Origin: Leptospiraceae bacterium
Lineage (GTDB): Bacteria > Spirochaetota > Leptospiria > Leptospirales > Leptospiraceae
DNA length: 64,000 nucleotides
Assembly (NCBI GenBank): GCA_022402465.1
Contig: JAKRSH010000033.1
Span: 1 to 64,000, forward strand
Direction: 5' to 3'
Each line of letters starts with the position of its first letter. Positions within the stretch are counted from its first letter, which is position 1. The translations under genes were made by a program, and so were the position numbers. The notes under the pieces are model-generated. The model made no database searches and was not told the DNA's origin. It saw only the letters and a list, made by a program, of their open reading frames with translations. Shown here piece by piece: positions 18,199-55,153 of this stretch.

Positions 18199-20217
18199 TC
18201 ATTCAACCCTATCAATAAATCCTGCACCAATGTGAGAACCATCACACAAAGGTTTATTTTTAGATTGACCACAGCGACAAAGTTTTACTTCAGAAGTTCT
18301 TAACACAAGCCTTCCAGTCCCAGCACAAATTTCTATGTTCCCTTGGACATGGTAAGGTCCGTCGTTTAATCGATTGATTTTTAATTTGCCATTTCGAACG
18401 GCTAAGGCATCGACTTGCATGCTAAGAGGTTCCCCACTTGCAGAAAAACCAGCATCCACATGTGCCCCATCACAAAACGGTTTATTCTTAGATTGACCAC
18501 AGCGACATAGGGTGGCTCTATAGCCAACTTCTGCATTATCAATTGTTAGGTCTGCTAGTAAAGCATAAGGACCATTTTCTCGCAGTCGTAATATATTCAC
18601 ATCAGGTATAGGTTCTTCGGTTCCACCATCTTTTCTTTTGAAGCGTATCGCACCAGATGGACACTCCCTTGCAACCATGGACAATATGTTCGGATCAGTG
18701 TTCTCAGCAAAAATCCATTTCCCCGGAGTATTTGCTTTGAAGACATTTGGAAGTTCTGTTACACAATGTCTGGAATGAATGCACTTTTTGCCTTCGAACT
18801 CCAATCGTATTGCATCCGTTTCAGAAACTTCAATGTCTGTTTCTTCAGTATTCGTGGGTTTAACTTTTATAGACTCTAGTTTTACTGAATTATCCTCTGG
18901 CAGAGCAGCACTTGATTTGCTTGTAATTTCTGGATCTGGCATCTTAGTAATTTCTGTATGCATTTTTTGTAAATCATTACGTGTTCTTATTAATGAATCC
19001 AAAGTATAATCAGCTGCAGAAGCTTGGAATTTACTTTCTGAAAGTCCAATTTCTAGCTCTTTCATATTTTCTAAGATTTCTTTAATTCTCTCCGATAGAA
19101 TTTTCTTTTCAGAGTTTCTTTCTAAGGGGGCTAGGGAACGAACCATTGCGAAACTCATCCCAGATAATATTTCTGGATGTTCTTCGCTTGATTTTAAAAA
19201 TGTCAAAGCTTCTGCAATATTTGCCATTCCATGCATCAAAGTATAGGATGAATCTATAAGAATTTTTTTGGAGATTGAACTTCTTTCATCTATGGAATAG
19301 ATTTGCACCAGAACTCTAAGCATTAACACATAAAGAGTGTTAGCTAAATCCATATATCTTGCTGCAAGTGGTTCTGTGATCCAAACTCGATTTTCTGGGT
19401 TCAATGGCTTTCGCATAACAGGGTTCCTGGCGGAAGGTCTGGATGGTTCAAATTTTGGATTTTCTTTTAATAGTTCTAAGTATTCATTCTTTATTCCAAG
19501 AAATCTTTGAAAGTGAGAGTCTTCAATATCTGTTGCTCCCTCTCCTTGGGATATAATTGTATCAATAGCCTTCAATGCCTCTTGTAAGCTTCCTACCAGT
19601 GTTAATCCTGGAAGAGTGGAATCCAAGGGACCTATTTGTAATTTTCTTGAACCACAGAAAAGTTGTTCTTCTCCCATTTTTTCACTTAGCTCAATCAAGC
19701 CTTCTCGTATGCATTCATAGAGTTCTCCTACCGTTTGGTAATCTCCTGAGCTTGGCATAAGTCTTCCTTTTTCAGAGAGTCTAGTATATTCATGATTGTG
19801 AAGAAATTCATTTCCATCCTGGAGATCCTGGTCTTTGGGTCTCTCCAAGTAGATAAAATGTTCAATCGTGCTAAGATTAAATGGTGCAAGTTCTATGATG
19901 AGTCCAGCAGGATAAGGACCTGGTGAGCTTGGAAAATTGGGTCGCATAAAATTAGGAGCACAACCAATCGAAGACATGATGTTAGAGACGAGTGTCAAAT
20001 GATTCATCTCTTCCAGAGCAACTCCTAGAATAACTTTCCTCCAACGATTCACGGCTATGGTTTCTTTTTCGGAAAATCCTTCCTTGCTAGAACGTTTGAG
20101 ACCAAACATAGAATATAGATACAGACACATTAGATTGTGCTCAATTTCAGAGGCCTCTACAAGGGCGGAAAATAGTTGGATACGCGATTCAATGGCAAAA
20201 TTATTTCTTGTTTTCAT
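18199..20217 (-). CDS. ferritin-like - 4Fe-4S mono-cluster - double CDGSH iron-sulfur fusion protein
   Basis: A 672-residue cytoplasmic redox protein. The N-terminal region of about 350 residues is ferritin-like in the VioB/iminophenyl-pyruvate-dimer-synthase style, with EASEIEHNLMCLYLYSMF near residue 22 and ALEEMNHL near residue 70 as the expected Glu and ExxH metal ligands. After a helical linker, residues about 475-530 form a divergent 4Fe-4S mono-cluster domain (KKCIHSRHCVTELPNVF, then CPSGAIRF). Two CDGSH zinc-finger-like 2Fe-2S domains follow, with CRCGQSKNKPFCDGAH near 571-586 and CRCGQSKNKPLCDGSH near 646-662. All cluster ligands are present. The fusion suggests an oxygen- or iron-dependent oxidase with its own electron wire. 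The substrate is unknown. It stands alone, convergent with the TetR gene. Confidence 0.85.
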   Translation of the reverse strand: MKTRNNFAIESRIQLFSALVEASEIEHNLMCLYLYSMFGLKRSSKEGFSEKETIAVNRWRKVILGVALEEMNHLTLVSNIMSSIGCAPNFMRPNFPSSPGPYPAGLIIELAPFNLSTIEHFIYLERPKDQDLQDGNEFLHNHEYTRLSEKGRLMPSSGDYQTVGELYECIREGLIELSEKMGEEQLFCGSRKLQIGPLDSTLPGLTLVGSLQEALKAIDTIISQGEGATDIEDSHFQRFLGIKNEYLELLKENPKFEPSRPSARNPVMRKPLNPENRVWITEPLAARYMDLANTLYVLMLRVLVQIYSIDERSSISKKILIDSSYTLMHGMANIAEALTFLKSSEEHPEILSGMSFAMVRSLAPLERNSEKKILSERIKEILENMKELEIGLSESKFQASAADYTLDSLIRTRNDLQKMHTEITKMPDPEITSKSSAALPEDNSVKLESIKVKPTNTEETDIEVSETDAIRLEFEGKKCIHSRHCVTELPNVFKANTPGKWIFAENTDPNILSMVARECPSGAIRFKRKDGGTEEPIPDVNILRLRENGPYALLADLTIDNAEVGYRATLCRCGQSKNKPFCDGAHVDAGFSASGEPLSMQVDALAVRNGKLKINRLNDGPYHVQGNIEICAGTGRLVLRTSEVKLCRCGQSKNKPLCDGSHIGAGFIDRVE

Positions 20218-33089: not shown

Positions 33090-34187
33090 TTAAATTCTAC
33101 GAGCACTGCCCACTTCATAGATTTCTATTCCTTCTAATTTACCTCTAATCTCTTGATTAGGAATTAGTTTAAGTTCGTATTTGCTTGGATCTTCCAGCTC
33201 ATCTTTGGTCTTTGATGATAGCAGTAAACTTCGCCCAACTTCTTTGGTTAAGCTCTCAATACGAGCAGCTATATTAACCGTGTCACCGATTACAGTTGTT
33301 TGGAACCTTTGATCTTCACCTATGGTTCCCAAAATAAGATTTCCGGAATTAATTCCAATACCTATGGCAATAGGGATTTCCGATTTTTGCATTCTTTCTG
33401 TATTGTAGTCTTTCAATTTTTCTAACATATGAATACTAGCTTCCATAGCATCATCTGCCTTTTCAAAGAGTGCCATAATAGAATCACCAATATAACTATC
33501 AATGAAGCCATTGTGTTTGTAAATGATAGGAGCCATATACCTAAGATATTCATTGAGTAAATCAAAGACTCGATTCGAAGGAATCAATTCGCATAGAGAT
33601 GTAAAACCTCTAATGTCAGAGAAAAGTACGGTTAGATGTTTTTCTTGAGAATGGCTTAAATTTACATTAGAATATTCTGATTCGTGAAAGCCAAGTAATT
33701 TCAGAAATTGACTAGGAACAAAACGAAAGAAAGCTTTTGCATTCTTTGCAAGAACTTCGGATTGAGCTTTGAGTTCTAATTCATTTCCATACCTTCTGAG
33801 CGCTTCTTGTATTGTGAGTTGCAGATCATTGGCTTCCCAGGGCTTGGATATATATCGATATAAACTACCGCTGTTTACTATGTTACCAACTGCTTCTGCA
33901 TTCGCTTGGCCTGTGAGAAGTATCTTCAAGGTATCGGGATAAGACTTATGTGTCAGAATCAGAAATTCATCACCCTTCATGCCTGGCATAATTTGGTCAG
34001 AAATAATCAAAGGAACTTGAAAACCATCCTCATGCAATTCTTTTAGTAATTCTAAAGCGTCTTCTGCACTTTCCGTAATTTCTATACGATATTGCTCACC
34101 AAAGACTCGTTTCAATTGCTCTTTCAGGCTAATCAAAACCGTGGATTCATCATCTACACAAAGAATCGTTGGTTTCTTAAGCTTCAT
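33090..34187 (-). CDS. response regulator with class III nucleotide cyclase domain (module A)
   Basis: A 365-residue output protein. The receiver (1-125) has D12/D13, phospho-acceptor D64 (ISDQIMPG) and K115 in SKPW. A helix follows, then a CHD-type cyclase domain (about 180-355). The metal-binding residues are D191 (LFSDIRGFTSL) and D235 (IGDSIMALF), and the transition-state N305 and R309 are in VNIAARIE. The position that is Lys in adenylate cyclases is Ser231, and the partner position is T298, so base selection may be relaxed or different. The gene directly follows the lone receiver (stop and start adjacent). It is the last gene of the 41433-33090 operon. Its paralogue is at 41712. Confidence 0.9.
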   Translation of the reverse strand: MKLKKPTILCVDDESTVLISLKEQLKRVFGEQYRIEITESAEDALELLKELHEDGFQVPLIISDQIMPGMKGDEFLILTHKSYPDTLKILLTGQANAEAVGNIVNSGSLYRYISKPWEANDLQLTIQEALRRYGNELELKAQSEVLAKNAKAFFRFVPSQFLKLLGFHESEYSNVNLSHSQEKHLTVLFSDIRGFTSLCELIPSNRVFDLLNEYLRYMAPIIYKHNGFIDSYIGDSIMALFEKADDAMEASIHMLEKLKDYNTERMQKSEIPIAIGIGINSGNLILGTIGEDQRFQTTVIGDTVNIAARIESLTKEVGRSLLLSSKTKDELEDPSKYELKLIPNQEIRGKLEGIEIYEVGSARRI

Positions 34188-34583
34188 TTATTTTAATCCT
34201 TCTAAAATAGTATCGATTAAATCTTGTTCATCCCAAGGTTTGTTGAGACATTTGAAAAGATTTGCTTCTTTCTCTGCTCTTTCAATAGCAGATTTCTCGG
34301 CTTGACCAGTTAACATTACTTTGGTGATTCCAGGAAATTTTTGATGAACTAAGATCAGAAATTCATCCCCTTTAATTCCAGGCATGAGCCAATCAGATAC
34401 AATTACCAAAACTTGTATTCCATTTTGGTACAACTCTTCAATGACTTCAAATGCCTCATCAGCACTCTCTGCAAATTCTAAGCGGTAGGCAGATTGAAAC
34501 TTGTTTTTCAATTGAGATTTAAGACTATTCAATACCATTTTTTCATCATCAACACATAGAATAGCGGATTTATTCATACTCAT
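34188..34583 (-). CDS. single-domain response regulator (module A)
   Basis: A 131-residue lone receiver with the acidic pair in CVDDE (D12/D13), phospho-acceptor D64 (VSDWLMPG), the conserved Thr/Ser region LTGQAEKS and Lys in LNKPWDE. It has no output domain, so it either passes phosphate to another protein or binds a target directly. It lies 14 bases after the DISM kinase and is directly adjacent to the receiver-cyclase gene, in one operon. It is about 80-85% identical by eye to the receiver at 42810. With no Hpt protein visible, it may act as a phosphate sink or adaptor between the kinases and the receiver-cyclase. Confidence 0.92.
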   Translation of the reverse strand: MSMNKSAILCVDDEKMVLNSLKSQLKNKFQSAYRLEFAESADEAFEVIEELYQNGIQVLVIVSDWLMPGIKGDEFLILVHQKFPGITKVMLTGQAEKSAIERAEKEANLFKCLNKPWDEQDLIDTILEGLK

Positions 34584-34597
34584 CTTCCTCAGAAATT

Positions 34598-36922
34598 TTA
34601 TTGTTCTATTTTATTTGGATAAGGCAGCAGAATCTTAAAACAGGTCATACCTAACTTAGAGTCCAGTTGAATCATTCCATTGTGCTTTTCAATAATTTGT
34701 TTTGTGATATGAAGACCGAGTCCAGTTCCTTCTCCAATTGGTTTGGTAGTAAAAAATGGATCAAATATTTTTTCCATGAATTCTTTGGGAACTCCTTTGC
34801 CAGAATCTAAAAAGCTTGCTTGGATATAATTTTTATTTTGGAATTGGATGGTTTTTACTTGAATTTTTAAATTTCCTCTTCCATCCATAGCTTGAATTGC
34901 ATTATGAATTAAATTTGTCCAGACTTGAGTTAGCTCATCCGGATAACAGGGTATTGATGGAATTTCCTCAAACTCTTTCTCGATTTGTATTCCTTTCTTA
35001 ATCGAATTCTCAAATACTGTAAGAACATTTTCTATGCTATTGATAATATTATGGTTCGTGATGTTGGCATTAGGATCAAAGTGTGTAAATGTCTTAAGTG
35101 ACAGTACAATTTTACCTGCTCGTATGGATGCTGTGTATATATTCACAACCAAATCTAAGATTTGCTTCCAAGACAAAGCATAATCTAGAAATTTATGAGA
35201 ATCTTCTTTTAACTCCTGGATTCTTTCTTCAGGAAGTGAGTGAATTCCTAGATCTGAAATCTTATCTATAAGTTCATCAGTCGCCTCAATGGAGGAATCC
35301 TCCAAAACACGAGTCAATTGTCTGCGGTTTTCTCTTTCTTCTTTACTAGAAAGAAATTTTTTCTTTCCTTCAGAAAGATCTATCCAATTCTGAATTTTTT
35401 GAAAGCCTTCTTTTTCCAGTAATAAAGTTAAATTGGGAAGATTCTTCCAAAACATCTTCAATCTTTCTTCTAGGGATGAAGAAGAAGATTGGATAGCACC
35501 AAGCGGGGAGTTGATTTCATGTGCCACGCCTGCTACCATAACTCCAAGTGTAGAAAGTTTCTCAGATTGTATGAGTTGGTATTGAGCGGCCTTTAGTCCT
35601 TGTTCTGCTTCCTTCTGTTCTTCTGAGCTGAGAATAGAGAGGTAAATTGTTTGAAATAAGGAAAAAATCAACAATCCAAAGCTCAGCATGAATCCTTCTC
35701 TATAATTCAATATACTAATATAGATATCATAAACTGAAAAACTTACTAAAACTAAGAAGCTAGCTACCAGCCAATGTCGTCCATATTTAGAAAATCGAAA
35801 GACTTGGATTAGAGTATAGATTATAACAATTCCAGTTAATAAGGATAGAATTTGCATAGGAAATAAGGTCTTCGTTAAATGGTATTGGTATCCAAAAATC
35901 GTAAGAATTATGGGAACTATGAAAAATAATAAGAAGAGATGGCACCACTTTTTTGAAAAGATGGTCTCTTGTTTGGCTAGGGAATGAACATAGTACAAAG
36001 TTATAAGCACCGAAGCATAAAATCCTAGATATTCAAATCGAATGAACAAATTCATAGGTAACTTTGGAAGCATAAAATGCAGAGCTACTTCACCCATAGA
36101 TAGAATACGAAGAGAAGCTAAAAAGCAAAAACAGGAAAAAAGCAAAGATCTGTAATTAAATCGCCTGACACTATATTGGACAAATTGATACAAACCGAGA
36201 AGAATTAATCCCCCTGCAATAAAGGAAGTAGAAGTTAATTTACTTTGGAAGGAAGTATCGATCAATTTATGAGAACCAATGATGGGTGATGTCCATAGAC
36301 CACCTCTTGGGTGGCCAAAGTTTGATATTTGTATCGCCAATCTATTGATAGGTTGTATATTTTTTAGTAAATATATTTGTTCATATCTAGAAGGTTGGAA
36401 TCTTGAAAAGTCTTGCTCATTTTGAAAGTTTCCATTCTCCCCTAAGTATCTACCATTCCAATAGATTCTATAGGCTCCACCGAGAATCTTTATGTAGAGA
36501 ACGGGATCTTGGAGTACATCTTCTAAGGGCAGTTGAATATCTACCATGTAGGTTCCGACTGCAAAACTTGCGTCCAATTGGGATTTTGTATATTCTTCAT
36601 CCAGATAAGAATTCCAAATTCCTTGCTTGGCGATCTTCATAGACTTGGACTCAGGTAGAGAACCAATGCTAGATTCAGATCCAGTTAACAATTGGTGGGG
36701 ATAAAAATTCCAATCTGTTTGCAAGCGAACAGATTCATTAGAAAAATTAAATTTTCTAAAATCTAAAAGAATGGGCGATTGATTTGCTAAGCTTGAGACT
36801 TTGCTCTCAGGCTCTAATTTTGTTTTGTTTACTTCTTGGGAATACAAACTTCTTGGCGAAGAAATGACAATTGCTGACAAAAACCAAATGGATAAATAAT
36901 ATACAACGGAACTTAATTTCAT
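34598..36922 (-). CDS. 7TMR-DISM sensor histidine kinase (module A)
   Basis: A 774-residue membrane kinase. A signal peptide (1-28) is followed by a periplasmic DISMED2-like domain (about 45-210, with FAVGTYMVDIQLP and YRIYWNGRYLGENGNF), seven membrane helices (about 215-410) and a coiled coil. The phospho-acceptor is H468 in GVAHEINSPLGAI. A segment of about 90 extra residues, including LSSKEERENRR, separates it from the second helix AGKIVLSLKTFTHF. The ATPase domain has the N-box WTNLIHNAIQAMD, G1 DSGKGVP and G2 GEGTGLGLHI. No receiver is attached. The start overlaps the giant kinase stop by four bases. It is a close paralogue of the protein at 43224. Confidence 0.9.
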   Translation of the reverse strand: MKLSSVVYYLSIWFLSAIVISSPRSLYSQEVNKTKLEPESKVSSLANQSPILLDFRKFNFSNESVRLQTDWNFYPHQLLTGSESSIGSLPESKSMKIAKQGIWNSYLDEEYTKSQLDASFAVGTYMVDIQLPLEDVLQDPVLYIKILGGAYRIYWNGRYLGENGNFQNEQDFSRFQPSRYEQIYLLKNIQPINRLAIQISNFGHPRGGLWTSPIIGSHKLIDTSFQSKLTSTSFIAGGLILLGLYQFVQYSVRRFNYRSLLFSCFCFLASLRILSMGEVALHFMLPKLPMNLFIRFEYLGFYASVLITLYYVHSLAKQETIFSKKWCHLFLLFFIVPIILTIFGYQYHLTKTLFPMQILSLLTGIVIIYTLIQVFRFSKYGRHWLVASFLVLVSFSVYDIYISILNYREGFMLSFGLLIFSLFQTIYLSILSSEEQKEAEQGLKAAQYQLIQSEKLSTLGVMVAGVAHEINSPLGAIQSSSSSLEERLKMFWKNLPNLTLLLEKEGFQKIQNWIDLSEGKKKFLSSKEERENRRQLTRVLEDSSIEATDELIDKISDLGIHSLPEERIQELKEDSHKFLDYALSWKQILDLVVNIYTASIRAGKIVLSLKTFTHFDPNANITNHNIINSIENVLTVFENSIKKGIQIEKEFEEIPSIPCYPDELTQVWTNLIHNAIQAMDGRGNLKIQVKTIQFQNKNYIQASFLDSGKGVPKEFMEKIFDPFFTTKPIGEGTGLGLHITKQIIEKHNGMIQLDSKLGMTCFKILLPYPNKIEQ

Positions 36923-39900
36923 TTGGTCTCCTCCAAATTCTCTAGGCTTTTTGGTAAAATGATTCGAAATAGAGTTTTCCCAGGTTTAGATTCGAATTCT
37001 ATGTTTCCCTTATGCTTCTCTATGATCTGTTTGGTGATATGAAGACCTAAGCCAGATCCTTCTCCTCTAGCTTTGGTTGTAAAGAATGCTTGGAAAATCT
37101 TCTCTTGTATTTGCAAGGGAATCCCCGGTCCATTGTCTTCAAATTCCACTACTATGCTATTCTGATCTGAGTCGAGTCTTGTACGTATTGTGATGCTTCC
37201 TTTGTTGTTCATAGCTTGGATACTATTTTGAAGAAGATTCGTCCAGATTTGGTTGAGTTCATCTGGATAACAAAGAATAGATGGTATCTCTTGGAAATCA
37301 GTATGAAGTTCAATTCCTTGTTTCAAAGAGTTTTGGTATATAGTTAAAACTGTTTCTATTCCTTCTCTGATATTGGCAGATTGTTTGAGACCTATTTGAT
37401 CAAAGTGGCTATAGTTTTTCAATGCGAATACAATTTTACCAGCTTTATCAACGGCAGACTGTATTGTATTAGCCTTAGCTTGAAAACCGACCAAATTGTA
37501 CGCAAGTTGGAGTGGATTTGTTTTCTTAAGTTGAAATAAGGGTAAAAATTCTTGCACGGATGAATAAAGACCCATGTCTACTAAATAGTCTGAGATGCCT
37601 TCTGGATCGTCTAGATTCATAGTTTCTAATTCTTGCGTAAGACTAGCTTTTATTTTTCTTTCTTCTCTGGTTGAAAGAATTTTCTTCTCTTCTTTAGCTC
37701 TTGCTAACAGCTTATAGAACAGTTGCAAATTTTCATCAGACAGTGTTTGAATTACCGTAGGAAAATCCATGATGGTTTCTTCTAAGGAAGTTGTGATATT
37801 TTGAATACTAGCCTTGATAGCTCCAAGTGGAGTGTTGATTTCGTGTGCTACTCCTGCTACCAATTGTCCAAGAGCTGCCATTTTCTCAGATTGAATCAAT
37901 TGTTCCTGGGATTCTTTGAGTTCGAAGTATGTTTGGTTAAGGTTATCGAATAACAAAGATTTATAAAGAGAGCTCGTAATCTGATTTGCAAAAGTATCTA
38001 TCTTACTGATATAGGTTCTATTGAATTCTGTTTTGGATAGATTGATATTAGCTAGCATAATAAATCCTATTGTTTTAGATTGAATCACTAAAGGAGATAT
38101 AATACTATTGTGGATTTGAGTTTGTTCTAAGATTTCCTTTTCTATGGGATGGATTCTATGAGTAACTTGTTTATTGAATATAGATTTTCCTACTTTCTTT
38201 GCCCAAAAGAAAGCACCAAGTGGTCCATTTAAGGGGATACGATTCTGCAATAGAATATTGCTATGATCCGATAAAGATCGATTATCTTCTGCATCTGTGG
38301 GAATGTATTCCGCATAACTTCCATCATCTGATACTTTGAAAAGGAAATGATATTGAATTTCAAAATCCCTTTTCAGGAATGAAATCACCTTTTCAAAGAA
38401 TTCATTGATGCTGACGCTCTCATTGAGTGACTGATTTAATTCATTCATTTGCATCAATTCATTCGCAAGTCCCAAAGACTGTGTTTTAGCTTCGACCGTT
38501 TCTTCATAAAGAAGGGATCTTTCTAAGGCACCAGCTATTTGGTTACTGAAGAATTCTATGTTATTTAGATCGGATCTACTGAGAGAAGTCTTATGTGATG
38601 AAAAATCAATACTTAGAATTCCTATGCATTGCTTGTTGGCAACTATGGGTTGCAATAAAAAAGATTTAAGATCCAAGGTGTTAATAATTTTTTGATCGGT
38701 TGCCTGGAAATTCGCTCTCTTGCTTATACTTGGAATATAAAAATTTTTCTTCTTTAGAAAGACCCTATACAGCATACCAAGATCTGGATTCAATTCAGCG
38801 CGAAAAGAATTGATGAATTCGATTTGTTCCGTATTATAATTTCCAAAGGAACTAAAGGAATCCGTCTCTAAATACCTTCCATCTTTGCTTACTTTTAAAA
38901 ACCACATTTCACCAGTTAGAAATTCAATATGAAGGTAGGATTTCACAATCTCTATCATTTGTGATATATTGGATGCCTTGCTGAGTTGTATGGAAACTTC
39001 ATACAGATTTCGAATGGCATTTTGAGCAGATTCAACTATCCTTTTTTCTTTTTGCAATTGCTCCACAAGACTTGAACGTATAAATACACCTGTTAGCTGG
39101 TCTGCTATTCTAGATAAATCTTTGATATTCTTTTTACTTAGATTCAATTCCTTTGACATTTGGTCAGAGAGGGCGAGTGCACCTACAGTTTTATTTTCCA
39201 ATTCCAAAGGAATTAAAAGGCAATTTCGTATTCCACCTTTGAAATAGATTTCAAAGTCTTTATTGAAATATTTGCTAGAAGAAAATCTCTGGAACAAATC
39301 AGGTTTCTTCTCTTGGATTTTTTGTATTCGATCCAATCGACTTGAATTTCTAAATAAGATAGGTTTGCGTCTTTGGATGGTTTCTATGAGTATAGACTTA
39401 CCTTGTTGATTTTCCACCTGAAAGTTCTTTATGAACTCATTTTGGCTTGGACTAAGATCTTTACCAGATCGCCAAATTCTAGATTGTAGATACTTTTGGT
39501 CTTCTGATATTTCAAGTAGCCATACTCCTGTTATATTGTATCTATTTTCTAAAAAATGATAGGTATAATCTATGACTGAATCTAAATCTATACTTGAATT
39601 GATCATTTTTGTAAAGAGATTGATATCTCGGATTTCTAAATTGGCTTGTTCCGCTAAAGTTTTCTCTTCTTGGATTTCCAATATGATTTCATCTAAGGTA
39701 TTCGCTATAGGTCTAGTTAGGATAAAAGAAAATGAATACAAACCAATCAACATGGGAGAACCAACAAGTATTACATGGAGAATTCTTTGCTGCCAATCTG
39801 CATTAACTGGCAATTCAAAATAATAGATCAACAGTGTTAAAGGTAGAATCAGAAAAGAAATCATAGACACACGATTGGAGATACTAGCTGCTTTGCCCTT

Positions 39901-41433
39901 TTGAATTAAGCCTTCATGCTTCACAACTGCATACCCTATCATTATAAAAGGGATAAAAGATAGATTTGCCATAGGATAAATAGCATAGCCCATAGTGGCT
40001 GGAAGATTCATGAGTATAAGGAAACCATTGATAAGAAAGAAGGTGAAAATATACTTTTTAACTGGACTTACAGGTTCTTTCGTTGATCGAATGAAACGTA
40101 TAGACAAAAATAACAAAAAAATGTTTAAGATCAATCCGAAACCACCAAACAACTGAAGTACGATTCCCGATTTAGATATTCTACCAAATTGATATAAGAA
40201 GTAGCCATCAAAAAGGTAGGGACTCATGGAACCTATGGAAGCAAAAATAGAGACAGTATCCACTATCCTTTGAATTTTTTTAGATTTGAAGTCAACTAAA
40301 TAGGCAATGAACCTGTAAGTGAGCGATGTGATAAAAGTAAACGGAATGTAAAACAATTGTTCTAAGCGAAGTGCGATTAGATCAGGTAATTCTATATTTC
40401 GAATAACTAAGATGATTTGAAGAAAGCTGCTAATCAAAAGAACCATAGAGGCATAGATATTAATTTTCTCTGTTGGATTGATTCCCGCTATATATGCACT
40501 CAAGATTAAACCTAAGATGGCAGAAAGCAAGGGTATGAGAAGTAAAGGATGGTAGATCTCTTGTCCTTCTACTGGCTTCAAGGCTATAGAAATGAGAAGG
40601 GAAATAAGAATAAGCCCTAGGCTTACCATCCCAGAGCTTAAATAAAAAATGCCTTTGCGAGCAAATAAAAAATCAGCGAGGTTGGCGAAGTTGGAACGAT
40701 AGATTCCATAGACCAAAAACACCATGGGTAAGAAAAAAAAGCCACCTCCAGGGTAGATAGGAATACCGATCAAGCTAGGAAAATTGGAAAGTAGTAATAT
40801 TGATGTTAGATGGAATCCAAAATGGCTTTGCCAGATAATTTTTTCTCTATCTTTTCGTAGATAATAATGGATAAAGAAAATCAAAGAAAAAAGATATAAA
40901 AAGGCATTGAAACCTCCCCATACCCTAAGGGCAAGGCCCCCAAGAGGATAATTCCCAAAGCTATAATGGATCCATTCACCTGTAAAAGCAGATCCCATGT
41001 ACAGGGCTACATAAGCGAAGACTATGCTTAGCGAACAGAAAAACAATAAAAGATAGAATATTTTATAGCGAAAGTTTAAAATAATATGACCTACCAAGAT
41101 TAAAAAAAATGGCAGCCAAACACAAAACCAATACAAGGTATAATTCCAATCCAAAAGTAGACTTAGTTCCTTGATGGAAGATCTAAGTGAAAGCAGGAGA
41201 GATAGGGAAGAAAGAGAGAGGATTAATCCTATATAAAAAAGAGTGATGATTTTTTGGTCATTTTGCTTCCAATTGTACACTAACAATACAATTAAGATGA
41301 GCCCAGTAAATAAGGTTAAAAATCCAGGAAGAGAGTAAGGAATCTGAAACCAGAAATAATCCCAACCTTGGGGATTGTGTGGAATTTCGTAAATACGAGG
41401 TAAAAGTTTGGTGAACATATGAGAATGGAACAA
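36919..41433 (-). CDS. giant multi-TM, three-GAF sensor histidine kinase (copy A)
   Basis: A 1504-residue kinase. Residues about 30-590 hold 15-16 membrane helices that look like two repeats of an eight-helix module (see findings). GAF-like domains follow at about 611-777, 821-971 and 998-1158. The coiled-coil [20 protein letters not shown] leads into [18 protein letters not shown] with phospho-acceptor H1197. An insert of about 90 residues ([21 protein letters not shown]) precedes [15 protein letters not shown]. The ATPase domain has [20 protein letters not shown] and [10 protein letters not shown]. It is the first gene of module A and overlaps the DISM kinase by four bases. The signals sensed by the membrane part and GAF domains are unknown. 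Copies B and C are at 45530 and 49965. Confidence 0.9.
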
Positions 41434-41711
41434 GACTTAAGGATTCTTCTTATCTTGGCAAGAGTTTTATAAATAAAACTAACATTAATACAATAAATAT
41501 TAACAGAATTTAGCAAAAGTTTGAAAGAATTTAGAATTGTAATTTAAGATTTGGATTGAATTTTTGAAAGCTGGGGAAGAAAACTAACGAAAAATTAATC
41601 ATGAATAAATTTGAGCAATAAGAGAAATTTCCTAGAGTGATTCCTCTTTTGCCTGGTTTAACCGTATTCTTAAGAATTGTTTCCAGAAATAGCCAATTCC
41701 TAAGGAGGTGC
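41434..41711. other. junction between the two signalling modules
   Basis: This 278-base AT-rich gap separates the stop of receiver-cyclase B (41712) from the start of giant kinase A (41433). It is the only sizeable gap inside the array and is where a separate promoter for module A would lie. I see no strong hairpin or clear -35/-10 pair. Confidence 0.4.
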
Positions 41712-42809
41712 TTACTTTTTCCTCTCTATCCCAACTTCATAAACTTCTATACCTTCTAATTTTCCACGTATCTCAGTTTTTGGTACAAGATTAAAAAGAT
41801 ATTTTTCCTTATTAGTCAATTGGTGAATCGTATCACCTGATACTAGTAGACTGCGTCCTGCATCCTTAGTTAAGCCTTCAATACGAGCAGCTATATTAAC
41901 TGTATCCCCAATAACAGTAGTTTGAATTCTTTTCTCTTCGCCTATAGTTCCCAAAATGAGATTTCCAGTATTTATGCCTATACCGATAGCTAGAGGAATT
42001 CCAGATTCTTCTATTCTTTTATCGTTGTATTTCTTTAGAGCTTGAAGCATCTCTAAGCTTGCTTCAATTGCTTCTTCGGGTTTATGAAAAAGTGCCATAA
42101 TAGAATCACCTATATAACTATCTATAAATCCATTGTGTTTATAAATGATAGGAGCCATATGACTTAAGTATTCATTCAAAAGAGTGAATATAGAATCAGT
42201 AGGAATAAGTTCACATAATGATGTGAAGCCACGAATATCAGAAAAGAGTACTGTCAAATTTTTTTCTAAGGAATGTCCTAAGGTAACTTCTGAATATTCT
42301 GTTTCAGTAAATCCTAATAATTCAAGAAATTGACTTGGTACAAAACGAAAGAATGCTTTTGCGTTTTTAGAGAGATTCTCTGTTTTTAATTGAATTTCTT
42401 TTTCATTGGAATATCTTCTAAGTGCTTCTTGTATTGTAAGTTGTAAGTCATTTGCCTCCCATGGTTTAGCAATATATCGATATAAACCACCATGATTCAC
42501 TGCATTTCCTACTGCCTCTGCATTTGCCTGTCCTGTGAGTAAAATTTTTAGAGTTATCGGATTCGATTTATGAACCTTAATTAAGAATTCATCTCCTTTT
42601 AAGCCAGGCATGATTTGGTCGGATATTATTAAAGGAATCTCAACAGAATCATCTTCTAATTCTTGGATGATTTCTAGAGCATCCTCTGCTGATTCAGCTA
42701 CTTCTATTCGATATGTATCACCGAAGACACGTTTTAATTGTTCTTTTAAGCTTACTAGTACAGTTGATTCATCGTCTACGCAGATGATTGTTGGCTTCTT
42801 TTGTTTCAT
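41712..42809 (-). CDS. response regulator with class III nucleotide cyclase domain (module B)
   Basis: A 365-residue paralogue of the protein at 33090 with the same length and no obvious gaps. The receiver has D12/D13, D64 (ISDQIMPG) and KPW at 115-117. The cyclase domain has LFSDIRGFTSL and IGDSIMALF for metals and VNIAARIE for the transition state. As in the paralogue, the adenine-selecting Lys position is Ser (FIDSYIGD) and the partner is Thr (TTVIGD). The start directly follows the receiver gene stop. The preserved catalytic metals in both copies argue that both are active enzymes. Divergence is greatest in the receiver's middle helices and the C-terminal tail, where different partners could be recognised. 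Confidence 0.9.
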   Translation of the reverse strand: MKQKKPTIICVDDESTVLVSLKEQLKRVFGDTYRIEVAESAEDALEIIQELEDDSVEIPLIISDQIMPGLKGDEFLIKVHKSNPITLKILLTGQANAEAVGNAVNHGGLYRYIAKPWEANDLQLTIQEALRRYSNEKEIQLKTENLSKNAKAFFRFVPSQFLELLGFTETEYSEVTLGHSLEKNLTVLFSDIRGFTSLCELIPTDSIFTLLNEYLSHMAPIIYKHNGFIDSYIGDSIMALFHKPEEAIEASLEMLQALKKYNDKRIEESGIPLAIGIGINTGNLILGTIGEEKRIQTTVIGDTVNIAARIEGLTKDAGRSLLVSGDTIHQLTNKEKYLFNLVPKTEIRGKLEGIEVYEVGIERKK

Positions 42810-43199
42810 TTATTTTAATCCTGCAAGAATTGTATCGATTAGTTCTTGTTCATCCCATGGCTTATTTAAGCATTTAAAAAGATTAGCCTCTTTTTCAGCT
42901 CTTTCAATAGCTGATTTCTCTGCTTGCCCTGTTAATAATACCTTGGTAATTTTGGGAAATTTTTTATGAACTTGAATTAAAAACTCATCTCCCTTGATTC
43001 CTGGCATCAACCAATCGGAAACAATGATCAATACATTTACACCTGACAGATCAAAATCATCTATAACTTCCAGCGCCTCATCAGCACTTTCAGCAAATTC
43101 CAATCTATATTCAGATTGAAATCTGTTTTTTAGTTGTGACTTTAAACTATTCAATACCATTTTCTCATCATCGACACACAAAATTGCTGCTTTGCTCAT
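42810..43199 (-). CDS. single-domain response regulator (module B)
   Basis: A 129-residue lone receiver with CVDDE, phospho-acceptor D62 (VSDWLMPG), LTGQAEKSAIE and LNKPWDEQEL. It matches the receiver at 34188 almost throughout; most differences cluster in the segment before the phospho-acceptor strand (EVIDDFDLSGVNVL against EVIEELYQNGIQVL), which lies away from the usual kinase-docking helix 1. That helix (KMVLNSLKSQLKN) is identical, so cross-talk between modules is plausible. It lies 24 bases after the DISM kinase gene and abuts the cyclase gene. Confidence 0.92.
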   Translation of the reverse strand: MSKAAILCVDDEKMVLNSLKSQLKNRFQSEYRLEFAESADEALEVIDDFDLSGVNVLIIVSDWLMPGIKGDEFLIQVHKKFPKITKVLLTGQAEKSAIERAEKEANLFKCLNKPWDEQELIDTILAGLK

Positions 43200-43223
43200 T
43201 TTATTCTCCTTTCTCTGGCTTTG

Positions 43224-45533
43224 TTAATTATTTTTAATTGGAATCAGAATCCTAAAAATCGTCTTCCCAGGATTTGAATCCAATTGAATGATTCCATTGT
43301 GTTTTTCAATTATTTGTTTAGTTATGTGAAGTCCCAATCCTGTTCCTTCGCCTATAGGTTTAGTAGTAAAAAATGGATCGAAGATTTTTTGTTTTAACTC
43401 TTCAGGAACACCCTTACCATTATCTTGGAAACTCGTAGATATATATTCTTTATTTTCAAGTAATTCTCTTTTTACTTCAATAATTAATTTACCTTTTCCA
43501 TCCATGGCTTGAATTGCATTGTGTATCATATTTGTCCATACTTGAATTAATTCATCAGGATAACATTGGATAGATGGTATTTCATCGAAATCAGTATGTA
43601 GATCTATTCCTTTTTTAATAGAATTATGAAATACTTCTATTACATTCTCTATCGATTCAATGATGTTATGCTCTGTATTTTGGGCATTGGGATCAAAATG
43701 TGTGAATGTTTTTAGAGAGAGGACAATTTTGCCTGCCCTTAAGGAAGCCTTATGAATATTACTAACTAAATGTAATAATTCTTTCCAACGTAAGGCCCAA
43801 TCTAAATAAAAATGATTCGAATCTTTTAATTCTTGGAAAGAAGTTTCTGGGATTTCATGGAGACCAAGATCGGAAGCTTTGTCTACGATTTCATCTGCAT
43901 CTTCTAAACCATGTTCTTCTAATCTAGATAAGAGTTTGCGTTTTATCTCACGCTCTTCTTTGCTTGATAGAGTTTTCTTATCATAATTGGAAAGTTCAAG
44001 CCAGTTTTGAATCTTGGGAAGACCTCCATCGTTTATAATTTTATTTAAATCAGAAATCCTATTCCAAAATGAATTGAGGGATTCTTCCAGAGAAGAGGAG
44101 GACGACTTAATAGCACCTAATGGTGAATTAATTTCATGTGCTACTCCAGCAACCATGATTCCTAAGGTTGATAATTTTTCTGATTGGATCAATTGATACT
44201 GGGCAGCCTTAAGACCTTGTTCGGCTTCTCTCTGTTCTTCGGAACTAAGGCTAGATAGATAAACGGCCTGCAATAAAGAAAATGCAAGGAGAGCAAATCC
44301 CATGAGGAAACCCTCGCGGGTATTACTTAAGCTAATATAGATATCATATAAGGAAGCAAAAATTAAAATTAAAAAACTACTCATGAGCCAAATTTTTCCA
44401 AATTTTGCATATCGAAATATTTGTACTAAGAAAAAAATTATTAAAAATGATGTTATTATTGAAATGATTTGCATGTAAAAAAGGGTATTAACTAATAAAT
44501 ACAAACTACCAAATAAACAAAATAAGATTGGAATAATAAAGAAAATCGAAAGTATTTTAAGCCAGAGAATGTTTATTGCTTTCTCTTTTGGAATAAGCGA
44601 ATAACAGTAATAAACTGCAACTAGAACTCCTCCATAAAATCCTAAATACTCAAAACGTAAAAATAGATTTCTAGGAAGCTGGGGAATCATTGAATGCAAA
44701 GCAACCTCTGCCATAGATAAAATTCTAAGACTTGTTAATATGCAAAATATTGCGAATAAAAGAGATCTATAATTAGATTTTTTTCCGAAGAACTGAACCA
44801 ATTGATATAGTCCTAATAAAATTAAACCCCCCGCTATAAAAGAAGTATTAGCAATATTTTTGTGATACTCTTCTTCTAATTCTTTCTTTATGCCTATAGT
44901 TGGATTTGTCCAAAGTCCTCCTCTTGGGTGATTAAAATTGGAAATCTGAATTGCAAGAACATTTGTATCAGCTAGATTATTAATAGCGAAAATTTTTTCA
45001 AATCTTGATGGTTCAATTTTTTTATCTGAATGATTAAGTTGAAAATTTCCTTCACTTCCAAGAAACTTACCATTCCAATACGCTCTGTATGACCCACCTA
45101 CATTTTTTAATTTAATTGCTAGCTCATCTTCAATCTTATTAGAGTCCAGTTTAATTAACATTATATAGGTTCCAATCGCAAAACTTGGATCTGATTCTTT
45201 AGATACTACATCAGGTTTTAAATATTGACTCCAAATTCCTTTACTAACAAGAATTCCTTCTTGGATTAAATTGATTTCATTATTTTGGAATTCCTCTCCT
45301 GTTAATAAATGATGTGCATAAAATATCCAATTCGAATCAATTTTAACGGGATTATCTTTGAAATTAATTTGAGTGTAGTCCTTAATTGCTGATAAATACT
45401 CTTTGTAAGTATTTTTGATTTCATTTGGGTCTGCAGAATAGATTGAAGGAATGAATAAGATAAGAAGTGTAAGAAAAAGTAAACGAAGTTTAAAAATAAT
45501 TATTTTATGTTTTTTGTTTTTTGTTTTTTTCAT
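43224..45533 (-). CDS. 7TMR-DISM sensor histidine kinase (module B)
   Basis: A 769-residue paralogue of the kinase at 34598. A Lys-rich N-terminus and signal segment (about 10-32) precede the DISMED2-like domain (FAIGTYIMLIKLD, YRAYWNGKFLGSEGNF), seven membrane helices and a coiled coil. The phospho-acceptor is H466 in GVAHEINSPLGAI. The insert again carries LSSKEEREIKR and the second helix AGKIVLSLKTFTHF. N, G1 and G2 boxes are intact. The periplasmic ligand domain is less similar to module A than the kinase core, so the two copies may sense different ligands and feed the same pathway. It overlaps giant kinase B by four bases. Confidence 0.9.
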   Translation of the reverse strand: MKKTKNKKHKIIIFKLRLLFLTLLILFIPSIYSADPNEIKNTYKEYLSAIKDYTQINFKDNPVKIDSNWIFYAHHLLTGEEFQNNEINLIQEGILVSKGIWSQYLKPDVVSKESDPSFAIGTYIMLIKLDSNKIEDELAIKLKNVGGSYRAYWNGKFLGSEGNFQLNHSDKKIEPSRFEKIFAINNLADTNVLAIQISNFNHPRGGLWTNPTIGIKKELEEEYHKNIANTSFIAGGLILLGLYQLVQFFGKKSNYRSLLFAIFCILTSLRILSMAEVALHSMIPQLPRNLFLRFEYLGFYGGVLVAVYYCYSLIPKEKAINILWLKILSIFFIIPILFCLFGSLYLLVNTLFYMQIISIITSFLIIFFLVQIFRYAKFGKIWLMSSFLILIFASLYDIYISLSNTREGFLMGFALLAFSLLQAVYLSSLSSEEQREAEQGLKAAQYQLIQSEKLSTLGIMVAGVAHEINSPLGAIKSSSSSLEESLNSFWNRISDLNKIINDGGLPKIQNWLELSNYDKKTLSSKEEREIKRKLLSRLEEHGLEDADEIVDKASDLGLHEIPETSFQELKDSNHFYLDWALRWKELLHLVSNIHKASLRAGKIVLSLKTFTHFDPNAQNTEHNIIESIENVIEVFHNSIKKGIDLHTDFDEIPSIQCYPDELIQVWTNMIHNAIQAMDGKGKLIIEVKRELLENKEYISTSFQDNGKGVPEELKQKIFDPFFTTKPIGEGTGLGLHITKQIIEKHNGIIQLDSNPGKTIFRILIPIKNN

Positions 45534-48500
45534 GATTCAAATCCTACTTTGTTCAATTCTGTTGGTAGATAAATTTGAAAGCATGTTTTGTTTGGGATAG
45601 ACGAAAATTGAATTCTTCCATTATGCTTATCAATAATTTGTTTGGTAATATGAAGTCCTAATCCAGAACCTTCACCTCGATTTTTAGTTGTGAAGAAAGC
45701 TTGAAATATTTTTTCTTGGATTTCAATAGGTATACCTGGACCATTGTCTTCAAATTCTACCATAATTTCTTTCTGATCTGAATTGTAATTTGTGCGAATT
45801 GATATTACTCCTTTGTTATTCATAGACTGGATGCTATTCTGCAAGAGATTCGTCCATACTTGATTTAGCTCATCCAGATAACAATTGATATCTGGAATAG
45901 CTTGGAAATCTGTGTTAAGTTCGATACCTTGTTTGATTGAATTCTGGTATATAGTAATTATAGTTTCAATTCCATCGATAATATTTGCAGATTGCATTTC
46001 TTCGTTTTGATCGAAATGACTGTAATTCTTAAGTGCAAAAACGATTTTGCCAGCCTTATCCACAGCAGATTGGATAGTATTCGTTTTGGATTGAAAGCCT
46101 GCTAAGTTATAGGCTAGTTGAACTGGATTAACTTTTGTTATTCTGAATAGTGGCTCAAATTCGGAAACTGAATCGTAAATTCCCATATCTACTAAATAAT
46201 CTGAGATTTCTTCCGGATCAGGAAGATCTAATTCTTCTAAGTCATTACTTAAGTCAGATTTAATTTTTCGTTCTTCTCTAGTGGATAGAATTTTCTTTTC
46301 GAGTTTTGCTCGGTGTAATAATCTATAAAAAAGTTCTAAATCTTGTTCTGATAATTCTTGAATTACCTTAGGATAGTCATTCAAAGTTTCTTCTAGAGAA
46401 GTTGTGATATTTTGAATACTTGCTTTTATTGCACCCAGTGGTGTATTGATTTCGTGAGCAACCCCTGCAACCAATTGACCCAGAGCCGCCATTTTTTCTG
46501 ATTGAATCAATTGTTCTTGGGAATTTTTCAATTCTTTGTAAGTCTGATTTAAATCGTTGAAAAGCAAAGATTTATACAAAGAGCTAGCGATTTGAGCTGC
46601 GAAGGAATCTATTTTTCGGTTGTAATTATTTTTGAAATCACTTCGAGATATTGAGAGATTACAAAGCATAATAAATCCAATGGTCTTTCCTTCAATAATC
46701 AATGGAGATATTAATATATTATTTACTAAGTAATTATCTGTTATGAATTTTTCTGTTGAATTTAATCTATGGGAAATTACTTTCAGGGGAGCAAATTGAG
46801 ATCGTTGTAATTTATTTACCCAAGAGAAAGATCCATGATTGTTCAATGGTATTGGATTTTGAACCATTAAATTTGAAAGATTTCTTAAGTTTTGGTTTTG
46901 GAAATCTGAAGTAGGAATATATTCTGCTGTGTTATTCTGTTCATTTAATTTAAACAAGAAATAGGTATCGAAAGTAAATTCATTCTTTAAGAAAGAAATT
47001 GCCTTTTCAAAAAATTCTTTAATATCAATACTTTCATTCAGCGTTTGGTTCAAATTATTTAATTGTTGTAGATCATCTGCTAGATCTAATGATTTCGCTT
47101 TTGCATTCAGAGCTTCTTCATAGAGAAGTGATCTTTCTAAGGCTCCTCCAATTTGTTGGCTAAAGAACTCTACACTATTCAATTCAGCCTTAGTCAACCT
47201 TTCCGTTCTTTCAGAAAGATTGATTGCGAATATACCTAAACACTTGTTATTTGATACAATAGGTTGTAATAATAACGACTTTATCTTAAAAATTGATATG
47301 ATTTCTCGATCTGTTTCATGGAAATTTGAAATATGAGAAGTATTGGATAGATAAAAGTTCTTCTTTCTTTTGAACACATTGTACATTCTTCCAAGATCTT
47401 CATTGATTTGTTTTTTGAAATTAGACATAAATATCAGTTGATCTGCTTCTAAATTATCGGTTTTGCTAGTGGACAGGTCACTCTCCAAATATTTACCATC
47501 TTCCACAGCAAGAAGAACCCAGAAATATCCAGCTTTTAATTCATTAAAGATATATTTTTTAACTATATCCATCATTAGAATGAAATTTGAAGCTTTACTT
47601 AATTGAACCGAAACTTCATTTAAATTACGAACTAAACGTTCTGATGTTTCTACCATCTTCTTTTCTGATTTTAATTGATCTATGATACTAGATCTTTGGA
47701 AAACACCTGCTAACTGGTCAGCTATTCTTACAATACTATTAACATCTTTTTTGGATATATTTAGGGTTGATTTTTTTTTATCAGTAAGTGCCAAAACTCC
47801 AATTGGTTTATTTTCTAATAACAAAGGAATAACTAGTGCGTTGTTGATTCCTCCCATTTTATTGATTTTTAGATCCCCAGGAAATGCTCCTTTGGAATAA
47901 AACTTTTTAAAGAGAAATGGTTTTTTCCTAAGTAAAGTATCTATAACAATAGATTGATTCTTTTTTACTTCAATTTGGAAATTTTTTATAAAATCAGATT
48001 GCGAATAATCTAGATAAATTGAAGATCTATAGATTTTTGACTTTAGTATTGTTCCATCTTTATTTAACTCTAATAACCAAGCGCTAGTTATTTCATATTT
48101 TTGTTCTAGAAATAAATGTGTATAGTCAATCACAGATTCGAGATCTAAGCTTGAATTGATCATTTTTGTAAAAAGATTTAAATCTCGAATTTCTTTATTT
48201 GCTTCTTGTATTAATTCTTGTTCATTTTGAATTTCTAGAATAGTTGAATCTAGGCTATTAGCAATTGGTCTTGTTAGAATGAAAGATAAAGAATAAAAGG
48301 CTATAAGTAAAGGTGAACCTACAACGGTTAGGTGTAAAAGTTTCTGATCAATTGCAATAGCATCTTGTAATTCAAAATAGTACATTGTGGTTACAAAAGG
48401 AATAATGAAGAAGGATAAAACAGAGATTCGGTTCGATATGCTTGCTGCTTTTCCATTCTCCGATAGTCCATCATATTTAATAACGGCATATCCAATTAAA

Positions 48501-49975
48501 AGATAGGGAATGAAACCAAAATTTGAAAAAGTATAAACTGGGTATCCTTTTGTAGCAGGAAGGTTAAGTAATATTAAAAATGCGTTAATAATAAAAAAAG
48601 AAAATATAAATTTGTTAGCTTGGGTTACAGGTTCTTTTAATATTCGAATTTTATAAAACGAAAGTCCTAGTATAAATAAATTTACAAATGTTCCAAGTCC
48701 ACCATACAATTGTACCAAGATTCCTGAATTGGAAATTTTACCAAAACTATATTGGTAGTATCCATCGAATAGATATGGACTCATAGAACCAAAAGCAAGT
48801 AAGGTGCAAGAGATATCTATACAATATGTTATGATCTTAGACTCAAAATTTAGTATATAAGTAAGGAATCTATAACTTAGTGAAATAATAAAAGCAAAGG
48901 GAATAAATAATAGCTGTTCTAAACGTAAGGATATAAGGTCTGATAATTCTAAATTTTTTGTAACCATTATAATTTGCATACAAGAACTTATGAGCAATGT
49001 CATAGAAGCATAGATGTTTATTTTCTGCGAAGGATTACTGCCTGCTATATAAATACTTAGAATAAGTCCAATTAATCCTGAGAATAGTGGTAAAAGAAGA
49101 TGTGTGTTGTAGATTTCGCTATCAACCGATGGCTTTAGGCTTATTGAGATTGCGATCGAAACAAGTATCAGTACAACACTAATACTAAAAGAAATTAAAT
49201 AAAATAAGCCTTTTTGATTAAAAAGAAAATCATTGAGATTAGAATAATTAGAGCGAAAGAATCCATAGATTAAAAAGACCATAGGAATAAAAAAGAAACC
49301 TCCACCTGGATACAATGGGATACCTGCCAAGCTTGGAAGGTGAGAAATAACTAATATACAAATGGAATGAAAGGCAAAATGGCTCTGCCAAATAATAGGT
49401 CCCTTATCCTTGCTTAGATAAAAACGAATAAAAGCTAAAATAGAAATTATATATGTAAAAGTACTATATGCTCCCCAAATTTGTAGAGCAAGTCCTCCTG
49501 TTGGGTAGCTTCCAAAACTGTAATGTATCCATTTACCTGTAAATGCGGTCCCTCTATACAAATCCAAATAAGAGTAAAGAATTGTGAAAAAACTAATTCC
49601 CATTAAGTACAAAAGATATTTGTGTCTCTTATTTAGTATTATATATCCAAGGTACAACATACAAATCGGTAAACAGACACAAAACCAATATAAAGTATAA
49701 TTGAATTTTAATAATAAGTCTAAGTCTTGTATGTTGGAACGAAGTGATACAAGTAAGGCAAGTGAAGAAAGCGATAAAATTATTCCTAAATAGGAAATAG
49801 TTATCCAAGTATTTTCTCTTTCCTTCCATTTATAAATCAAAAGTGTAATTAAAATTATTCCTATTAAGAAAGTAAGATAACCTGGTAAGGCAAAGGGTAA
49901 TTGTACCCAGAAATAATCCCAACCAGTCGGATTCTCAGGAAAGATGAATGGTATAGGTGTCAACTTATTGAACAT
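45530..49975 (-). CDS. giant multi-TM, three-GAF sensor histidine kinase (copy B)
   Basis: A 1481-residue kinase starting MFNKLTPIPFIFP at 49975, with AAGGAAG seven bases upstream; an in-frame start at 50083 would lie deep inside copy C and is rejected. Its start overlaps the stop of copy C by 11 bases. The domain order equals copy A: 15-16 membrane helices, three GAF-like domains, the HisKA region with H1174 in [13 protein letters not shown], the STREERKIK insert and an intact ATPase domain. It looks more AT-rich than copy A. The first residues FNKLTPIPFIFPENPTGWDYFWVQLPFALPGYL are nearly those of copy C, pointing to a relatively recent common origin of B and C. Confidence 0.9.
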   Translation of the reverse strand: MFNKLTPIPFIFPENPTGWDYFWVQLPFALPGYLTFLIGIILITLLIYKWKERENTWITISYLGIILSLSSLALLVSLRSNIQDLDLLLKFNYTLYWFCVCLPICMLYLGYIILNKRHKYLLYLMGISFFTILYSYLDLYRGTAFTGKWIHYSFGSYPTGGLALQIWGAYSTFTYIISILAFIRFYLSKDKGPIIWQSHFAFHSICILVISHLPSLAGIPLYPGGGFFFIPMVFLIYGFFRSNYSNLNDFLFNQKGLFYLISFSISVVLILVSIAISISLKPSVDSEIYNTHLLLPLFSGLIGLILSIYIAGSNPSQKINIYASMTLLISSCMQIIMVTKNLELSDLISLRLEQLLFIPFAFIISLSYRFLTYILNFESKIITYCIDISCTLLAFGSMSPYLFDGYYQYSFGKISNSGILVQLYGGLGTFVNLFILGLSFYKIRILKEPVTQANKFIFSFFIINAFLILLNLPATKGYPVYTFSNFGFIPYLLIGYAVIKYDGLSENGKAASISNRISVLSFFIIPFVTTMYYFELQDAIAIDQKLLHLTVVGSPLLIAFYSLSFILTRPIANSLDSTILEIQNEQELIQEANKEIRDLNLFTKMINSSLDLESVIDYTHLFLEQKYEITSAWLLELNKDGTILKSKIYRSSIYLDYSQSDFIKNFQIEVKKNQSIVIDTLLRKKPFLFKKFYSKGAFPGDLKINKMGGINNALVIPLLLENKPIGVLALTDKKKSTLNISKKDVNSIVRIADQLAGVFQRSSIIDQLKSEKKMVETSERLVRNLNEVSVQLSKASNFILMMDIVKKYIFNELKAGYFWVLLAVEDGKYLESDLSTSKTDNLEADQLIFMSNFKKQINEDLGRMYNVFKRKKNFYLSNTSHISNFHETDREIISIFKIKSLLLQPIVSNNKCLGIFAINLSERTERLTKAELNSVEFFSQQIGGALERSLLYEEALNAKAKSLDLADDLQQLNNLNQTLNESIDIKEFFEKAISFLKNEFTFDTYFLFKLNEQNNTAEYIPTSDFQNQNLRNLSNLMVQNPIPLNNHGSFSWVNKLQRSQFAPLKVISHRLNSTEKFITDNYLVNNILISPLIIEGKTIGFIMLCNLSISRSDFKNNYNRKIDSFAAQIASSLYKSLLFNDLNQTYKELKNSQEQLIQSEKMAALGQLVAGVAHEINTPLGAIKASIQNITTSLEETLNDYPKVIQELSEQDLELFYRLLHRAKLEKKILSTREERKIKSDLSNDLEELDLPDPEEISDYLVDMGIYDSVSEFEPLFRITKVNPVQLAYNLAGFQSKTNTIQSAVDKAGKIVFALKNYSHFDQNEEMQSANIIDGIETIITIYQNSIKQGIELNTDFQAIPDINCYLDELNQVWTNLLQNSIQSMNNKGVISIRTNYNSDQKEIMVEFEDNGPGIPIEIQEKIFQAFFTTKNRGEGSGLGLHITKQIIDKHNGRIQFSSIPNKTCFQIYLPTELNKVGFES

Positions 49976-55075: not shown

Positions 55076-55153
55076 TCATTTTATATTTTGGCTTCATTCT
55101 TTTTAAGAAAGAGAATTGACTCAAGTGTTTTACTCTTTTACATTCATTTTAAT

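Follow-up and report, generated by a model that had tools for sequence, protein, structure and literature searches.

What does a protein do that joins a ferritin-like domain to three predicted iron-sulphur domains in a single chain? The question is raised by a gene of a Leptospiraceae bacterium, located in a stretch of 64,000 nucleotides that was analysed as a whole and is called the window here. Bacterial CDGSH proteins are widespread and have no settled function in the literature that we found. In the window's protein, the CDGSH clusters would be covalently tied to a likely diiron site, so that CDGSH function becomes directly testable in one purified chain, which offers defined metals and one measurable electron path.

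The domain combination is already in print, CDGSH having been catalogued in bacteria together with Fer4_19 and with ferritin-like domains (PMC5859297, Sci Rep 2018), and the window's protein adds another member. The passages of that source on ferritin-type CDGSH proteins say nothing of a function, of ligands, of a permuted domain order or of a fusion to globin, and the open PMC literature yielded neither a functional study of the ferritin-like/Fer4_19/CDGSH architecture nor a paper linking CDGSH with VioB. Two features described below, the ferritin-bearing proteins of permuted order and the fusion to a globin, may be unreported.

Gene and domain layout

The gene is an intact, ATG-started ORF on the minus strand that occupies exactly positions 18199-20217 of the window and encodes 672 aa. 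Its features are as follows.

18199..20217, minus strand: whole coding sequence, 672 aa, ferritin-like / Fer4_19 / CDGSH / CDGSH (ORF translation and Pfam)
19492..20160, minus strand: PF12902 ferritin-like domain, residues 20-242 (Pfam, ligand conservation and fold of residues 1-275)
18934..19377, minus strand: second four-helix bundle, residues 281-428, without a Pfam family (structure match to 9qq5)
18841..18915, minus strand: linker of low confidence, residues 435-459 (pLDDT below 50)
18637..18813, minus strand: Fer4_19 domain, residues 469-527, with C479, H481, C485 and C519 (Pfam and alignment)
18460..18576, minus strand: first CDGSH domain, with C571, C573, C582 and H586 (alignment)
18232..18363, minus strand: second CDGSH domain, with C647, C649, C658 and H662 (Pfam and alignment)

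The initial annotation had placed ferritin-like, 4Fe-4S and two CDGSH domains in one protein, and all of them score above the curated Pfam cut-offs: PF12902 over residues 20-242 (E 1.2e-38, 133.6 bits vs a gathering cut-off of 22.3), PF06902 (Fer4_19) over residues 469-527 (E 7.6e-10, 39.1 bits vs 24), and PF09360 (CDGSH), matched twice (E 1.9e-28, best stretch 619-662). The architecture is also more than a chance arrangement, with at least 45 full-length relatives from other genomes aligning at about 27-50% identity. No other PF12902 protein and no further CDGSH domain were found in the source genome. Our best reading is that the protein is a soluble single chain joining a ferritin-like core to a putative Fe-S arm.

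The ferritin-like core

A full-length AlphaFold2 model, built on a 45-sequence alignment, reached a mean pLDDT of 88.9 and a pTM of 0.68, with one weak linker (residues 435-459). Over residues 8-357 this model matches CC_0557 of Caulobacter vibrioides (PDB 3hl1), a ferritin-like protein, with Z 24.2 over 262 residues (rmsd 2.7, 21% identity), and 3hl1 was the only Foldseek match passing E 0.001. A separate model of residues 1-275 (pLDDT 87.3) again matches 3hl1 (Z 16.8, 200 residues, rmsd 3.3), along with 1nf4 (Z 12.6, 148 residues, rmsd 3.0) and nigerythrin (Z 12.1), and for residues 10-258 as a separate model, bacterioferritins and Dps are matched at Z values of about 12-13. Because values near 13 are weak evidence for helical bundles, the ferritin-like assignment is carried by the Pfam score and by 3hl1. 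CC_0557 shares the ExxH and GEG motifs as well as the fold, but is a protein of 317 aa without Fe-S domains. Since the confident model gives the N-terminal region a ferritin-like fold and conservation supplies candidate metal ligands, the outcome that would have refuted the domain first proposed did not arise.

Diiron ligands had been expected around residues 22-30 and 70-75, where conservation now points to E26 and to E70 and H73 as candidates. In an alignment of 60 ferritin domains (39 same-order fused proteins, the window's included, 8 permuted, 3 StaD-type and 10 unfused), E70, H73, E125 and E226 are present in 60/60, E26 in 59/60 (with one gap), Y167 in 59/60 and H235 in 58/60. The canonical ligand count of a ferritin-like diiron site is four Glu and two His, and E125, E226 and H235 would complete such a candidate site with E26, E70 and H73. 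Between helices 2 and 3, the fused proteins conserve R92, N94, P96, E125 and R146, a stretch that looks like the lining of a pocket.

Pfam's 221-residue PF12902 model spans the first bundle only. The second bundle, residues 281-428, matches the mini-bacterioferritin 9qq5 (Z 15.5, rmsd 2.3 over 133 residues), and no conserved ExxH pair was seen there in the alignments of relatives, for which reason we read it as probably a metal-free bundle of bacterioferritin-like fold. A 306-aa 'bacterioferritin' in the PDB (9viw_A) matches both bundles weakly in the same order and is perhaps a tandem ferritin-like didomain.

Kinship with StaD, RebD and VioB

Three plasmid-borne matches of StaD/RebD type align with the window's protein at 24-28% identity over about residues 6-387. 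Each of their genes adjoins an FAD oxidoreductase gene, and the stretches fetched around them hold a cytochrome P450 in 3/3 cases, an FAD monooxygenase in 2/3 and a tryptophan halogenase in 1/3, a layout that we take to be that of bisindole clusters. A profile of the core matches the C-terminal parts of the three proteins over about 390 residues (E 7.6e-50, 5.3e-48 and 1.8e-46), so that the last 400 or so residues of these chromopyrrolic-acid/VioB-type synthase relatives are homologous to both bundles. E26, E70, H73, E125, E226 and H235 are kept in them. They differ in having a long N-terminal part of their own (about 640 residues), no Fe-S arm, Leu in place of His27, and a location in bisindole-type gene clusters. 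Because the core is homologous to the C-terminal parts of proteins from such clusters, we regard it as a putative enzyme-type ferritin domain.

The initial annotation had called the domain VioB-like, which holds at the level of the family (PF12902) but not for VioB itself: the VioB equivalog model TIGR04492, of about 1000 residues, gave 58.8 bits vs a cut-off of 1250, and its best stretch covers only profile positions 738-915 of a model that the 672-aa protein falls well short of in length. Membership of VioB/StaD was rejected, with score, length and neighbourhood all against it.

The iron-sulphur arm

Across the 38 same-order proteins, the window's included, C479, H481, C485 and C519 of Fer4_19 are invariant (38/38), as are all eight CDGSH ligands in the alignment (38/38). 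Both CDGSH domains have the motif C-x-C ... C-D-x-x-H, with three Cys and one His, and both motifs are kept in 8/8 permuted proteins. Position 482, where the second Cys usually lies, is A in 26, S in 11 and T in 1 of the same 38 proteins and never Cys; its equivalent in 34 stand-alone modules is A in 19, S in 10, V in 3 and I in 2.

Ferredoxins with CXX?XXC(X)nCP motifs, which lack a Cys at this place, have been described as isolated in [3Fe-4S] form (PMC6237146). As the Fer4_19 domain has only three Cys and the invariant His481, its one predicted cluster could equally be [3Fe-4S] or [4Fe-4S]. The earlier '4Fe-4S' label is therefore apt as the name of a Pfam family match, but as a cluster type it is no more likely than [3Fe-4S], given three Cys only and no Cys at 482. 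Since CDGSH proteins reportedly transfer entire clusters in addition to electrons (PMC5859297), the arm might serve for something other than electron relay.

Relatives, domain orders and spread

The genome scan was read from the best 80 loci of at least 561 confirmed stretches, and the full-length set, a lower bound, comprises 44 of these 80 loci and L082, giving 45 relatives. Left out were L034, which is split into two ORFs, and L037, which is cut at a contig edge; L053 was retained despite starting at one. Among the matches listed, 37/45 full-length relatives have the order ferritin / Fer4_19 / CDGSH / CDGSH, and 8/45, all titled Eremiobacterota or Eremiobacteria, have the permuted order ferritin / CDGSH / Fer4_19 / CDGSH. 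The arm also occurs by itself: stand-alone Fer4_19-CDGSH-CDGSH proteins of about 210 aa were found in at least 34 loci, plus Haloarcula, and carry the same module at 38-55% identity, but without a ferritin-like domain in the protein or in the flanks covered (34/34 loci). Stand-alone modules of permuted order were seen in L085, which comes from the same phylum as the window, and in Roseobacter.

Matches to the permuted protein that span 600 or more of 659 residues occur in 22/148 genomes of a phylum set centred on one Eremiobacterota genome, the 8 seed genomes included. The same-order full-length protein is rare: it is found in 2/369 genomes of a class set around a Rhodanobacter genome (24 further genomes of this set match the module only) and in 2/289 genomes of a class set around an Asticcacaulis genome, each count including the central genome. 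In the window's phylum, PF12902 is matched in 16/392 genomes, and below E 1e-30 only in the window's genome and in one other (G023); the gene is patchily spread in its phylum.

In 2/148 genomes of the Eremiobacterota-centred set (G1196 and G1174), proteins of about 600 aa carry a PF01152 bacterial globin domain (Pfam E 9.2e-7 and 1.2e-9) behind the permuted module, and their first 130 aa or so have no Pfam match.

L158 1645-3441, minus strand: CDGSH-Fer4_19-CDGSH and PF01152 globin, about 600 aa, an apparent single-chain globin with an Fe-S arm
L159 3892-5700, minus strand: CDGSH-Fer4_19-CDGSH and PF01152 globin, about 600 aa, an apparent single-chain globin with an Fe-S arm

The module is thus paired repeatedly with iron domains of the O2 type, and the presence of a similar arm on a globin and on the ferritin-like core is our best hint that such an arm serves O2- or NO-reactive iron centres.

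Origin of the gene and of the fusions

In the ferritin-domain tree, the window's protein is sister to a Nevskia protein (100/98) within Pseudomonadota and Myxococcota sequences, and G023, the only other long match in its phylum, is placed elsewhere. With a GC3 of 0.276, the gene falls within the range of 12 other measured genes of the window (0.222-0.303) and hence does not have the look of a recent foreign insert. Since it is patchy in the phylum and nearest to a gammaproteobacterial copy, the simplest reading is that it was probably acquired horizontally, at a time remote enough for its compositional signature to have faded.

The module tree places the fused modules in one clade (98/96), made up of 39 fused and 2 stand-alone rows (L042 and L044, the latter beginning at a contig edge and perhaps a cut fused protein), which is nested among the stand-alone modules and adjoins alphaproteobacterial ones. 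An unfused Methylobacterium protein falls together with the permuted ferritin domains (97/89), but a single clade of all fused proteins is not rejected (AU p 0.052, with 19/39 same-order proteins used and long branches). Taken together, this is no more than suggestive of two fusions of independent origin, for which the different domain orders are the stronger argument, because stand-alone proteins of both orders exist.

Gene neighbourhood

The window gene is accompanied by genes for a TetR regulator (convergent), a zinc-type alcohol dehydrogenase, ArsR, MatE and a response-regulator HD protein (divergent). That no pathway genes adjoin it, as first noted, is borne out in the window and extends to the relatives, in which no neighbour is conserved. 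When selected ORFs of at least 90 aa in the 45 full-length loci and L001 were clustered, the largest shared cluster was a mixed one from 15 loci, among whose members is the response-regulator protein encoded beside the gene in the window. Of 81 adjacent ORFs, 60 were tallied by Pfam, the 21 left out being mainly very long or probably antisense, and no family occurred in more than 3. An operon logic was rejected, no neighbour being conserved across relatives. Neither a reductase partner nor a substrate pathway was found in the neighbourhood of the gene, and a scan for promoters and terminators gave a signal no better than that of shuffles. The gene acts alone or with widely scattered partners.

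Possible functions

In light of this architecture, what might the protein do? We tentatively favour, at just short of an even chance, a single-chain, O2-reactive non-haem diiron oxidase or oxygenase with a built-in electron arm and a small organic substrate. The PF12902 core (the diiron bundle and the metal-free second bundle) would be the catalytic part; electrons from an outside donor would enter the Fer4_19-CDGSH-CDGSH arm and be passed on to the diiron site, and the reduced site would activate O2 and so oxidise a small organic molecule. This proposal builds on the domains, fold, conserved candidate ligands, StaD/RebD homology and repeated pairings found by computation, and would entail metal binding, electron flow from module to diiron site, and organic oxidation rather than water as the outcome. 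It is supported by two domain orders reaching the same composition and by the permuted module occurring also on a globin, and the absence of conserved neighbours is in keeping with an enzyme that brings an electron arm with it. The 'self-contained redox chain' of the initial annotation goes too far as it was put, since an outside reductant would still be needed and the chain is itself a putative one.

The main alternative, rather unlikely but with real points in its favour, is a rubrerythrin-like reductase of peroxide, O2 or NO for stress defence, in which the diiron site would turn H2O2 or O2 into water, the fused arm would supply electrons and no organic substrate would be involved. Rubrerythrin and nigerythrin likewise hold a diiron ferritin-like domain and an electron-transfer domain in one chain, and the nigerythrin fold match (Z 12.1), the orphan gene with no pathway around it, its patchy spread and the fusion of the permuted module to a globin, a domain type used for O2/NO chemistry, would all suit this role. 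However, the window's protein has a predicted three-cluster arm of CDGSH and Fer4_19 and no rubredoxin domain (Pfam scan, E up to 0.1), the StaD/RebD-type proteins are the nearest relatives of the core for which a pathway can be recognised, and a pocket-like lining of R92, N94, P96, E125 and R146 would seem unneeded for simple peroxide reduction. We consider it improbable that the protein handles iron or Fe-S clusters, its core storing or sensing iron while the CDGSH arms load or unload clusters, or control the release of iron in the way that Bfd does for bacterioferritin. Both bundles are bacterioferritin-like by fold, and CDGSH proteins can hand on clusters (PMC5859297), but storage proteins are much poorer matches to the core than 3hl1 (Z 24.2) and the StaD-type proteins (E 1.8e-46 or lower), and no isc or suf family stood out among the 25/52 neighbour families listed. 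Least credible, and very improbable in our judgement, is a coupling enzyme of bisindole (VioB/StaD) type: the PF12902 and TIGR04492 matches and the homology to StaD-type C-terminal parts speak for it, but against it stand the TIGR04492 score far below the cut-off, the absence of the N-terminal part of about 640 residues, and a Pfam scan of nine neighbouring ORFs that showed no bisindole-type cluster partner, be it a VioA/RebO-like or a P450 gene.

Returning to the favoured oxidase or oxygenase, an arm that feeds the diiron site would make the protein a self-sufficient oxidase built without flavin and its core a simpler cousin of the bisindole synthases. It is possible, with our doubt outweighing our belief, that the CDGSH/Fer4_19 arm is a portable, flavin-free three-cluster module that was joined separately to O2-activating iron domains, namely PF12902 (in two orders) and globin. 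If so, these proteins would make up a class of their own among single-chain oxygenases or reductases, a new one, and the CDGSH domains of bacteria would gain a definite part in catalysis.

Other observations

Two unfused PF12902 genes (L148 666-3747 and L152 2812-5891) lie next to, or one small ORF from, a gene for MbnB/TglH/ChrH (PF05114), a RiPP-modifying enzyme, suggesting that PF12902 enzymes occur in peptide natural-product clusters. On a Nostoc plasmid (L108 6001-10842), a radical SAM gene is flanked by two ferritin-like genes, the other parts of whose products presumably are LodA-like. PF12902 genes have been described near fungal lodA-like genes (PMC4417212). On a Methylobacterium plasmid (L109 3911-7218), genes for a GMC oxidoreductase and a sugar dehydrogenase small subunit are followed directly, on the downstream side, by that of an unfused PF12902 protein of 411 aa.

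Elsewhere in the window, positions 33090-50083 (minus strand) hold two successive sets of genes, for proteins of 365, 131, 774 and 1504 aa and then of 365, 129, 769 and 1517 aa. The first set encodes a response regulator with a cyclase domain (365 aa) and a 7TMR-DISM histidine kinase (774 aa), and the region looks like a duplicated signalling cluster. At 55088-57106 (plus strand), FIST sensor domains are fused to an adenylate/guanylate cyclase.
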